A DNA stretch of 36,430 nt from Streptosporangium minutum (GTDB taxonomy: Bacteria; Actinomycetota; Actinomycetes; Streptosporangiales; Streptosporangiaceae). Numbering within the stretch: the stretch's first letter is position 1; each line of letters begins with the position of its first letter. This document shows positions 32,454 to 35,369 of the stretch, in pieces. The stretch lies in contig NZ_NGFP01000063.1 of NCBI RefSeq assembly GCF_002149035.1, forward strand, positions 1 to 36,430. Direction: 5' to 3'. A program made the translations under genes and the position numbers. The notes below the pieces were generated by a model. That model ran no database searches. It had not been told where the DNA came from and worked only from the letters and a program-made list of their open reading frames with translations.

Positions 32454-32635
32454 GCGTCCCCGTTCCTCCCCTAGTCGCGTGTCGGCGTGGGAAGCCTACG
32501 CGTGTTTGCCACCCGCCGCCGCACCCCCCGGCACACACTTTGCCACCACTCGGACCCCCCGTCGTCGCACACTCTGAGCGACGATCGGCTACTTTGGGTG
32601 ACGGTGTTTCTGAGCTGGGCGTACGGGGGGAACAT

Positions 32636-34015
32636 GTGAAGACCGACGAGGGCTACAGCCACGCGCTCGGCAACCGCCAGGTGCAGATGATCGCGATCGG
32701 CGGCGCGATCGGCGTCGGGCTGTTCCTCGGGGCCGGCGGGCGGCTCCAGGCGGCCGGTCCGGCACTGGTGCTGTCGTACGCGGCCGCCGGGCTCGCGGCG
32801 TTCTTCGTCATGCGGGCCCTCGGCGAGCTCGTGCTCTACAAACCGACCTCGGGCTCCTTCGTAGAGTACGCCGCCGACTTCGTCGGACCGTGGGCGGCCT
32901 TCGCCAGCGGCTGGATGTACTGGATCAACTGGGCCTTCACCGGAATCGCCGAGCTGACCGCGATCTCCATCTACGTGAGCCTGTGGGCCCCGCAGTTCCC
33001 CCGATGGCTGACCGCGCTCATCTCGCTGGCGTTCGTGCTGGCCGTCAACCTGCTGTCGGTGCGGCTCTTCGGCGAGCTGGAGTTCTGGTTCGCCCTGCTG
33101 AAGGTCCTGGCCATCTGCGCGTTCCTGGTGACCGGCCTGGCGCTGGTGATCTTCGGTTTCGAGCTGGGCGGCAGCACCGCGGGGGCGGGGAACCTCGTCG
33201 CGCACGGCGGATTCTTCCCCAACGGCTTCCCGATGGCGCTGATGAGCCTGCAGTCGGTGATCTTCGCCTACTCCTCGATCGAGCTGGTCGGCATCGCCGC
33301 GGGCGAGACGGAGAACCCCCGGGAGATCATGCCCAGGGCGATCAACGGCGTGATCTGGCGGATCGTGGTCTTCTACGTCGGCTCGGTCCTGCTGCTGGCC
33401 ATGGTCCTGCCGTGGACCGCCTACGGCCCCGGCCAGTCCCCGTTCGTGACGGTCTTCGCCGCGCTCGGCATCCCCTGGGCCGCCGACGCGATGAACCTGA
33501 TCGTCATCACCGCCGCCCTGTCGTCGTGCAACTCCGGCCTCTACTCCACCGGCCGGATCCTGCGGGCCATGGCCCAGAAGGGCGAGGCCCCCGCCTTCGC
33601 CGGGCAGCTCAGCTCCCGCCAGGTCCCCTACGGGGGCATCCTCATCACGGCGACCGTGTTCGTCGCCGGGGTCGTCCTCTACTACTTCGTCCCGGAGCGC
33701 GCCTTCAACATCGCCACCGCGATCGCCTCGCTCGGCGTGATCACCACCTGGGGCACCCTGCTCTACTGCCAGATCCGGCTGCGCCGCGCCGCCGAACAGG
33801 GCCTGCTCGAACGCCCCGCCTTCCGGATGCCGGGCTCGCCCTACACCGGCTGGCTCACCCTGGCCTTCCTCGCGCTGGTGATGCTGCTCATGGCGTTCGC
33901 CGACGCCGACCAGCGCATCGCCTTCTTCTGCATCCCCCTGCTGGTCGCCGCCATCGCCGCCGGCTGGCGGATCGTCGACCCCCGCCGCCGGCGCGCCGGT
34001 GCGTCCCTCGACTGA
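32636..34015 (+). CDS. Amino acid permease (APC superfamily)
   Basis: A 459-residue permease with about 12 transmembrane helices. It opens with HALGNRQVQMIAIGGAIGVGLFLGAGG, the signature of the AAT family (GabP/AnsP/CycA/PheP type), with the GxGxGLF substrate-binding break in helix 1. SSIELVGIAAGETENP marks helix 6 and its loop. Specificity within the family (GABA, asparagine, aromatic, D-Ala/Ser) cannot be read with confidence. The start is the GTG at 32636 with GGGGGG five bases upstream; the frame opens further up but those residues are not family-like. Divergent from dnaE across 182 bp. Confidence 0.92.
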   Translation: MKTDEGYSHALGNRQVQMIAIGGAIGVGLFLGAGGRLQAAGPALVLSYAAAGLAAFFVMRALGELVLYKPTSGSFVEYAADFVGPWAAFASGWMYWINWAFTGIAELTAISIYVSLWAPQFPRWLTALISLAFVLAVNLLSVRLFGELEFWFALLKVLAICAFLVTGLALVIFGFELGGSTAGAGNLVAHGGFFPNGFPMALMSLQSVIFAYSSIELVGIAAGETENPREIMPRAINGVIWRIVVFYVGSVLLLAMVLPWTAYGPGQSPFVTVFAALGIPWAADAMNLIVITAALSSCNSGLYSTGRILRAMAQKGEAPAFAGQLSSRQVPYGGILITATVFVAGVVLYYFVPERAFNIATAIASLGVITTWGTLLYCQIRLRRAAEQGLLERPAFRMPGSPYTGWLTLAFLALVMLLMAFADADQRIAFFCIPLLVAAIAAGWRIVDPRRRRAGASLD

Positions 34016-34121: not shown

Positions 34122-35054
34122 TCAGTCCTGACCGCTCGCCCTGCGCTCCTCCGCCAGGTGCAGGCCCGCCTCGATGACGGCGTTCATGATGGGCGCCAGC
34201 CGTACCTCCCCCAGGCCGGGGGCGCGGCGGGCCATCTCGGCGACCAGGCGGCGCTCGCGGTCCATGTCGCGGCCGGCGAAGCCGCCGACGGGCTTGAGCC
34301 GCTGGATGGTGCCGGCGAGCTCGGCACGGCGTTCGAGGAGGACCGCCAGGGCCGCGTCGACCCGGTCGACGGCGCCGCGGGCGGCGAGGACGGAGTCGGG
34401 GGTCTCGCGGCGGGTGACCGCGCCGACGATCCTCACGGCCTCCTGCGCGGCGAGGACAGCCCGCTCGCCGGCGCCGGGGGCCAGCAGCAGGCCGTCGGCG
34501 CCGGCCGCGACGGCGGCGGCGGCCAGTGCGGGGTCCTCACCGAGATCGGCCAGGACGGGGCGGCCGGACTTCTCCCGGGCGGCGCGCATCAGGGCCAGGT
34601 CGAGGGTCACCCCGGCCAGGTGCGTACGGCTGCCGCTCTCACAGAGCACGACCTGGTCGTTGCCCTCGGCCACGCAGTAGTCGGCGATGGCCAGCCACTC
34701 CTCCAGAGTCGCGGCAGGGCCGCGCTGGACGAGCACCGGCAGCCCCAGGCGGGCGACCGCGCGGACCAGCCGGAAGTCCTGCATCCAGGCCGCGCCGACC
34801 ACCACGCCGTCGGCGCTCCCGGCGATCTCCGGCAGGTCCGCCGCCGAGAACGGCTCCACCAGGATCGGCCCGGCCCACTCGGCGCGGACCGCCGCCACCG
34901 CCTCGGCGGCGGGCACCCTCCCGTGGTGGTCGCGCAGGTTGACCCAGCGGGCGTCCGCGCCCGGGCCACCGACCACCACGGCCGGTCCGGCCCCCACCGT
35001 GAGCGTCCCCAGCTTCACGGCCCCGCGCTCCAGGTGTGCGGTCAACAAGGACAT
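34122..35054 (-). CDS. Chorismate mutase (AroQ) fused to a degenerate DAHP synthase-like domain
   Basis: A 310-residue fusion. Residues 12-225 follow the class I DAHP synthase layout (FSAADLPEIAGSADGVVVGAAWMQDFRLV, VLVQRGPAATLEEWLAIADY, GNDQVVLCESGSRTH, AVAAGADGLLLAPG). The catalytic signatures have changed: the AGPC cysteine segment is GGPGAD, the KPRTSPYSF loop is missing, KRG is QRG, the DPSH metal site is ADLGED and the VHP metal site is LAPG. It is probably catalytically dead. Residues 225-305 are an AroQ chorismate mutase (RGAVDRVDAALAVLLERRAEL, QRLKPVGG, RDMDRERRLV) with its Arg/Lys/Glu set present, converting chorismate to prephenate for Phe/Tyr. GAGGAG precedes the ATG. An attenuator-like leader lies upstream. 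Confidence 0.85.
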   Translation of the reverse strand: MSLLTAHLERGAVKLGTLTVGAGPAVVVGGPGADARWVNLRDHHGRVPAAEAVAAVRAEWAGPILVEPFSAADLPEIAGSADGVVVGAAWMQDFRLVRAVARLGLPVLVQRGPAATLEEWLAIADYCVAEGNDQVVLCESGSRTHLAGVTLDLALMRAAREKSGRPVLADLGEDPALAAAAVAAGADGLLLAPGAGERAVLAAQEAVRIVGAVTRRETPDSVLAARGAVDRVDAALAVLLERRAELAGTIQRLKPVGGFAGRDMDRERRLVAEMARRAPGLGEVRLAPIMNAVIEAGLHLAEERRASGQD

Positions 35055-35105
35055 CTCGGCTCCTCATGCTCAGCCGGCACCCATCCGCGAGCCGGCGAAT
35101 CGTCA

Positions 35106-35138
35106 GAAACAAAAAAGGCAGAGACTGGGTCTCTGCCT
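35106..35138 (-). terminator. Intrinsic terminator of the chorismate mutase leader (attenuator)
   Basis: On the minus strand AGGCAGAGAC, a CCA loop, GTCTCTGCCT and then TTTTTG form a 10-bp stem with a T tract, the only textbook intrinsic terminator in the window. It lies about 50 nt upstream of the chorismate mutase start and 35 nt beyond the leader peptide stop, so it would end transcription before the gene unless prevented. Confidence 0.85.
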
Positions 35139-35141
35139 CGT

Positions 35142-35197
35142 GCCGGCTCCGGATGGTCGCTAGATCACGCTGTCACGACCGGCCCTCCGGAGCCGGC
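35142..35197 (-). promoter_or_regulatory. Competing hairpin of the attenuator leader RNA
   Basis: GCCGGCTCCGGA and TCCGGAGCCGGC (plus-strand 35142-35153 and 35186-35197) are a perfect 12-bp inverted repeat. One arm lies within codons 9-13 of the leader peptide; the other abuts the terminator stem. The latter arm can also pair through AGCCGGCAC with GTGCCGGCT next to the gene's ribosome site (plus-strand 35072-35080 and 35140-35148). These mutually exclusive pairings are what a ribosome-controlled attenuator requires. Confidence 0.65.
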
Positions 35198-35223
35198 TCG
35201 ATAAACGCGAAATAGCAAGTCAT
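35173..35223 (-). CDS. Attenuator leader peptide, 16 aa, Tyr-Phe-Ala-Phe
   Basis: ATG at 35223, TGA at 35175-35173; the peptide is MTCYFAFIEPAPEGRS. Codons 4-7 are TAT TTC GCG TTT: one Tyr and two Phe codons in four positions, just before a stretch that forms one arm of an RNA hairpin. The next gene makes prephenate, the precursor of exactly these two amino acids, so stalling at scarce Tyr/Phe-tRNA would relieve termination, as in pheA/trp leaders. The ATG lies 7 nt after a TATCGT -10 box, so it is probably leaderless. Confidence 0.75.
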   Translation of the reverse strand: MTCYFAFIEPAPEGRS

Positions 35224-35230
35224 GATATTG

Positions 35231-35236
35231 ACGATA
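35231..35236 (-). promoter_or_regulatory. -10 element of the chorismate mutase leader transcript
   Basis: TATCGT (minus strand, 35236-35231) matches TANNNT and places the transcription start at or next to the ATG of the leader peptide (35223). The -35 region (TGGCGT around 35259-35254) is poor. Confidence 0.45.
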
Positions 35237-35369
35237 GGCCATCTCCCCACCACACGCCACCTGCTGGACAACACGTCTCGGATTGTGGACACTCAGGTCG
35301 CGCGGGAGTCGATCACCCTTCTCGGCCTATGAGAGTATTCGGGGGTTTAGAAAGGGGTAGGTGCGGTTG

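Follow-up and report, generated by a model that had tools for sequence, protein, structure and literature searches.

In Corynebacterium glutamicum, aroF is preceded by a leader peptide, AroR, that carries Phe-Tyr-Phe (available excerpt of PMC4046766), and a review states in its accessible portion that stalling under phenylalanine limitation raises aroF transcription and that tyrosine is without effect (PMC11802643, citing Neshat 2014). The Escherichia coli trpL leader and, going by a partial account of it, the pheL leader resemble the locus described here in placing control codons, a helix, and a terminator ahead of an aromatic gene. In Streptomyces lividans, trpL1, leuL2, and ilvL are short leaderless ORFs with control codons and an apparent Rho-independent terminator, but none of the eight leaderless peptides in the available part of that report is one for Phe or Tyr (PMC8079986). 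The available text of a survey of Actinobacteria by Seliverstov et al. (2005), which posed the same search question as we do here, states that none of the conserved RNA structures it sought was observed upstream of phenylalanine/tyrosine operons (PMC1262725). In the accessible sections of a 2026 paper on attenuation in Mycobacterium tuberculosis, the only passage retrieved by aromatic terms concerns ilvB1 (PMC13236596). A Phe/Tyr attenuator ahead of an actinobacterial chorismate mutase was not found among the titles and abstract openings of the openly licensed literature.

Here, we describe a candidate for such a leader in Streptosporangium minutum. The window is the whole stretch of DNA analyzed, 36,430 nt (positions 1 to 36,430 of contig NZ_NGFP01000063.1, assembly GCF_002149035.1), and the leader is read on its minus strand (Table 1). 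A preliminary description of this DNA had proposed a -10 box, a 16-codon ORF containing TAT TTC GCG TTT, a 12-bp hairpin, and an intrinsic terminator, and each of these is present in its proposed place. The terminator had been given as a 10-bp stem followed by T6; the T6 run stands (35116-35111), but the stem has 9 bp (35137-35129 with 35125-35117) and reaches 10 only with a flanking A-U pair. Arms A and B form the 12-bp helix A:B, arm A being built from codons of the leader ORF itself. Compared with shuffled sequence, the folding of the leader has a z-score of -6.0, which none of 200 shuffles reaches, and in a fold of the RNA that ends with the terminator, both A:B and the terminator are present, one beside the other. 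The ORF, which starts 7 nt behind the -10 box, is probably leaderless; this distance is 7 nt in 35 and 6 nt in 11 of the 46 aligned leaders introduced below. Ahead of the -10 box, a stretch at 35240-35285 (minus strand) that by eye resembles TGAGAC...GTCC..AGGTGGCG is kept in many genera and may represent a -35 region or the binding site of a regulator.

Table 1. Features of the leader and its downstream gene (window coordinates; changes on both sides of base pairs are given for the 46 aligned leaders and, where stated, for the wider set)
Feature	Position	Strand	Remarks
-10 box TATCGT, leader promoter	35231..35236	-	TAnnnT in 46/46 aligned leaders, 6-7 nt upstream of the start codon
Leader ORF, 16 codons + TGA, MTCYFAFIEPAPEGRS	35173..35223 (ATG 35223 to TGA 35173)	-	Start-to-TTT distance 18 or 21 nt in 46/46
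Near-invariant Phe codon TTT (codon 7)	35203..35205	-	Followed by arm A after 5 nt
Helix arm A (leader codons 9-13)	35186..35197	-	35197-35186 pairs with 35153-35142; both-sided changes in 5/12 A:B pairs, 7/12 in the wider set
Inner helix H2 (GGTCG 35180-35176 with CGACC 35159-35155)	35155..35180	-	ORF stop just 3' of the H2 5' arm
Helix arm B	35142..35153	-	Ends 4 nt ahead of the terminator
Intrinsic terminator GGCAGAGAC-CCA-GTCTCTGCC + T6	35111..35137	-	Both-sided changes in 3/10 pairs, 10/10 in the wider set
GC-rich arm past the terminator, 35096-35081 (possible partner of B), with its own hairpin partner 35078-35073	35073..35096	-	Not universal
SD-like GAGGAG	35065-35060	-	Ahead of the gene start at 35054
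310-aa gene, partial DAHP synthase I domain (54-171) and chorismate mutase type II domain (226-297)	34122..35054	-	PF00793, PF01817

The gene behind the leader had been taken for a chorismate mutase. Its mutase domain is present (PF01817, 34.3 bits), but it is not a plain chorismate mutase, as part of a DAHP synthase domain is fused on (PF00793, 58.2 bits, profile positions 80-200 of 270). The N-terminal part of the domain is missing from this synthase half, as are several conserved motifs. The LLKRG and THST motifs have catalytic roles in DAHP synthase. When the protein is aligned with the DAHP synthase/chorismate mutase chain 3nvt_A, the synthase part starts only at query residue 56, LLKRG corresponds to LVQRG, and the THST stretch lies opposite a gap in the query; for these reasons the synthase half is probably inactive. 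It is possibly a pseudo-enzyme retained as a regulatory domain. A chorismate mutase found under the same type of leader at L189 has an N-terminal half that is even less recognizable, its match to the window protein being confined to residues 190-302. The leader's other neighbor is a protein kinase gene that runs divergently from 35361 on the plus strand. An amino-acid permease gene at 32540-34015 (plus strand) is convergent with the chorismate mutase gene; its best NCBIfam match is an L-asparagine permease, below the cut-off.

The preliminary description had pointed to an alignment of relatives as the way to check the leader, and this came out in its favor. A search for related loci gave 74 named ones, which by their titles belong mostly to Streptosporangium, Nonomuraea, Microbispora, and their kin, and the leader profile matches 68 of them. 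Five of the six misses (L093, L097, L100, L101, and L103) lie on contigs that start after the place of the leader, and one (L087) is a real miss. After removal of near-duplicates (>96.5% similarity), 46 distinct leaders made up alignment A1. Left out by script were L038, L052, L066, and L104 (no terminator) and L070, L084, and L091 (no ORF); all of these except L038 entered alignment A4. In the 46 leaders, 97.3% of cells pair and 9 of 27 pairs show changes on both sides, A:B and the terminator stem both covarying; the covariation score was reached by none of 500 shuffles and by no slid version of the structure. Three A:B pairs are G-U wobbles in 13, 13, and 17 of the 46 leaders, which speaks for an RNA structure rather than a DNA palindrome, since frequent G-U would be unexpected in a DNA operator. 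When Rfam 15 families were run against the leader, none reached its gathering threshold; the best, GA-cis, scored 21.1 bits against a threshold of 34.7, and this near-match was taken as chance. In Streptosporangium amethystogenes (L038, 2615-2928), the leader ORF stands apart from arm B and the terminator because of a long insertion, a natural disruption. In the Sphaerisporangium leaders L091 and L084, the Phe codon is gone (GCC and GTC instead), and L091 looks decaying. Some lineages thus do without the Phe codon or the intact layout of the element.

The reading frame of the leader is also kept. The start codon is ATG in 42 and GTG in 4 of the 46 leaders, and its distance to the TTT codon, 18 nt in 39 leaders and 21 nt in 7, is always a multiple of three; the distances from TTT to arm B fall into all three classes modulo three (17, 14, and 15 leaders). 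At the key position stands TTT in 45 leaders and TTC in 1. The TTT and TAT codons of the window's leader stand out because four large ORFs of the window have 84 TTC but a single TTT, and 59 TAC but no TAT. Conserved Tyr and Phe codons had been expected in relatives, and this was borne out for the last Phe, which is near-invariant, but not for Tyr, which occurs in only 32 of 46 leaders; Tyr or Phe besides the last Phe is found in 39 leaders, and in the remaining 7 the last Phe is the sole Tyr or Phe. As far as the available accounts of AroR go, a near-invariant last Phe with variable Tyr fits the Phe-only response reported for that leader.

Spacing was measured in 73 leaders, the set from which we also built a broader covariance model (R2). 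The TTT codon stands exactly 5 nt ahead of the helix in 58 of them. Ten leaders give 2 nt, a value that counts outer pairs past a mismatch, and their unbroken helix begins at 5 nt; one gives 3 nt, one (L091) is degenerate, and in L061 (TTC), L070 (TTC), and L084 (GTC) the codon lies by eye 5 nt from the helix. Given the 5-nt spacing, a ribosome at the last aromatic codon would leave A:B at its mRNA entry. Arm B is followed by the terminator after 2-6 nt in 72 of 73 leaders and after 8 nt in one. In 72 of 73, arms A and B enclose the stop codon, the lone exception being misframed by the script, and therefore a ribosome at the stop would sit in the loop of the helix.

Searches with covariance models show that the leader is by no means confined to this gene. 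The model built from the 46 A1 leaders has a single site in the genome to which the window belongs (a second match is the same place on the opposite strand), and it matches 178 of 249 genomes of the order and 49 of 296 genomes of the class, at least 2 of the latter being partial or false. R2 matches 141 of 201 genomes in another family; in the class it matches 58 of 296, of which at least 3 were taken as false. At 75 of 76 fetched loci, the best tblastn match is a DAHP synthase or chorismate mutase (single or fused) that follows the leader on the same strand. The loci were best matches together with a spread over genera rather than a random draw; ten sites were counted twice and one (L190) is the seed site L090, so that 65 of 66 distinct sites have the expected gene. 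At the 75 loci, the first aligned enzyme residue lies 43-229 nt past the leader, and the one exception is a 739-base contig end. The wide alignment had been fitted to the structure; in it, both sides change in 21 of 27 pairs, and 0 of 500 shuffles reached the score. Among seven held-out loci, the expected gene is present at four; the other three (L259, L260, and L261; 25.7 bits or partial matches) lack it and were taken as false positives. Two genomes of one family (G416 and G443 of f21) carry two leaders each (L188/L189 and L156/L172), one before a DAHP synthase gene and one before a chorismate mutase gene, and the chorismate mutase leader peptides begin MRTYTAF... and MRTFLDF....

DAHP synthase supplies tryptophan, tyrosine, and phenylalanine, and chorismate mutase only phenylalanine and tyrosine. 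We scored Trp in the leader peptides up to the conserved aromatic codon, with counts for the 17 further chorismate mutase sites, the 27 DAHP synthase sites, and the other family made by eye. L173 (gene cut off) and L190 (the same site as L090) were left out; the peptides of L190 and L191 read YYAF and YFAF by eye. No Trp was found in any of the 63 chorismate mutase leaders (46 aligned and 17 further sites), nor in the held-out leader L262, and Trp is present at 13 of 27 DAHP synthase sites (Fisher P = 1.2e-8, relatedness ignored). In the DAHP synthase leaders of the other family, Trp occurs in 19 of 20 (YWRF, YFWF, RYWF, and the like), and full-length DAHP synthase matches in two families outside the model have it in 3 of 3 (WYAYF twice and WYWRF). 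Because DAHP synthase stands ahead of three end products and chorismate mutase of only two, the control codons match the place of the enzyme in the pathway, and the Trp pattern fits the branch point. The preliminary description had noted that the leader's amino acids match the end products of the enzyme, and Tyr and Phe without Trp before chorismate mutase agree with this.

We also looked for the published Corynebacterium leader among our genomes. A 19-nt stretch of a published aroR primer matches 1 of 201 genomes (L263); since the other primers tried have no exact match there, this is a relative, probably a close one, and not the published strain. Its leader, MFAARFYFMSGS... (MFAARFYF...), places its final TTT 5 nt ahead of a helix directly adjoining the terminator, and its stop codon lies in the helix loop (partly by eye). 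Judged by the layout of L263, the AroR-aroF leader is like the window's family in its Phe/Tyr codons, the last of them 5 nt from the helix, and in the position of the helix beside the terminator, but its gene encodes a DAHP synthase rather than a chorismate mutase. Model R2 matches L233 and L234 but gives no match on the C. glutamicum-type L263, where the letters of helix and terminator differ.

On these comparisons, the element is likely to set the expression of chorismate mutase by ribosome-mediated transcription attenuation, in response to charged tRNA-Phe and, with less strictness, to charged tRNA-Tyr. The ribosome-mediated Phe/Tyr attenuator of the preliminary description thus remains the best reading, with the comparative test positive and the family extending to DAHP synthase, where Trp is added. 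That description had also called the attenuator complete. An antiterminator that would exclude the terminator, however, was not found in the window's clade. In our test, approximate ribosome footprints were removed, the RNA was ended before the second arm of the terminator, and the upstream pairing of the first arm was averaged. First-arm pairing was used because the equilibrium probability of the terminator, which is 0.94-1.00 (mean 0.99) in every ribosome state, is flat for E. coli trp as well (0.84-0.86). The E. coli trp antiterminator was detected as a positive control, with 0.06 in the free RNA, 0.56 and 0.56 in the stalled states, and 0.01 at the stop. In 59 leaders of the clade, the values were 0.58 free, 0.29 Tyr-stalled, 0.38 Phe-stalled, and 0.45 at the stop; since stalling does not raise the pairing, the clade, unlike E. 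coli trp, gives no antiterminator signal.

Several candidate pairings were considered individually. The preliminary description had offered arm B two partners. Pairing with leader codons 9-13 is upheld by strong covariation; the segment near the gene's start, which wins over A when the whole leader with its post-terminator arm is folded to minimum energy, lies past the terminator and cannot prevent termination. As an antiterminator, this post-terminator arm would be transcribed too late, and by eye it is absent from several Microbispora leaders (L065, L072, and L098). A local hairpin A:A' (H1) can pair in 99% of cells but has 0 pairs with changes on both sides, which leaves it without support as an alternative fold in the clade. 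Pairing of the UUU codon with the 5' arm of the terminator was scored in two registers, and the covariation scores were reached by 32 and 97 of 500 shuffles.

A classical attenuator, in which a pairing of arm B or the leader with the 5' arm of the terminator exists and was missed, is the strongest rival reading, and we consider it unlikely. The geometry of control codon, helix, and stop is the classical one, UUUAYC can pair with GGCAGA in 92.6% of cells, and in some DAHP synthase leaders (L197, L244-L247, and L250) arm B can alternatively pair with a downstream CCGGCUC, a hairpin that excludes A:B and suggests that arm B is the switching strand of the family. The pairings of UUU with the terminator, however, lack covariation clearly beyond that of shuffles and would be covered by a ribosome at UUU, and the test that detects the E. 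coli trp antiterminator detects none in the window's clade. The element, with its ORF and terminator, appears to be a variant that works like an attenuator rather than a classical ribosome-mediated one.

For a variant attenuator of this kind, we propose the following steps. When Phe and Tyr are plentiful, the ribosome would reach the stop codon inside A:B and open the helix, and the terminator would form freely. When Phe is scarce, the ribosome would halt with UUU in the A site and A:B at its mRNA entry, and RNA polymerase would read through. In the most speculative step, A:B would fold out the intervening RNA and bring the stalled ribosome to within a few nucleotides of the 5' base of the terminator, where it might sterically keep the hairpin from closing in the exit channel of the polymerase. 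As a tentative generalization, actinobacterial aromatic attenuators may work in this way without a competing antiterminator, a helix 5 nt ahead docking the stalled ribosome beside the terminator and blocking its closure, with Trp, Tyr, and Phe in the peptide marking the place of the enzyme in the pathway.

The sign of A:B could also be the opposite. The helix would then promote termination, for example as a pause hairpin, and a ribosome stalled at UUU would block its lower half and cause read-through, which we rate as less likely still than a missed antiterminator. By the toeprint rule, a ribosome with UUU in the A site may cover up to 5 bases of arm A, and some folds then show a short hairpin, GCC:GGC, in the stretch from B to the terminator. 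In frameshift signals, however, a 5-nt spacing is needed for a helix directly ahead of the ribosome, and the spacing found here suits such a helix. This model does not tell the two states apart, since A:B would be opened by a ribosome at the stop as well, and GCC:GGC is impossible in the mycobacteria-like leader L162, where only two loop bases would be left.

It is very improbable that the RNA is a metabolite riboswitch or is bound by a protein, with the ORF fortuitous. The strong conservation of the structure and the lack of an Rfam family at threshold speak for such an RNA, but indels preserve the frame, the change from TTT to TTC in L061 and L070 is synonymous, the loops are variable, and the aromatic codons track the position of the enzyme in the pathway. 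Terminators are common between genes, but an ordinary terminator of the upstream gene with a chance ORF is hardly credible, because the kinase gene runs divergently and cannot be served by it, and conservation and covariation span genera and families.

As judged from sequence comparison, the element is a real, conserved aromatic attenuator of a known general kind, with predicted regulation. What appears to be new is its chorismate mutase target, its wide distribution, which the titles and abstract openings searched did not show in print, and a link from ribosome to terminator that seems to differ from the classical one. One predicted leader and one described Corynebacterium attenuator thereby become a large, recognizable class across Actinomycetes, where RNA control of Phe/Tyr genes had not been seen in the 2005 survey. 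The peptides themselves are a natural experiment, with Trp present before the shared first enzyme and gone past the branch point. Fixed spacings among codon, helix, and terminator, together with no antiterminator found, allow a direct test of how the position of a ribosome reaches RNA polymerase, and the leaders are ready-made parts for engineering of the aromatic pathway.
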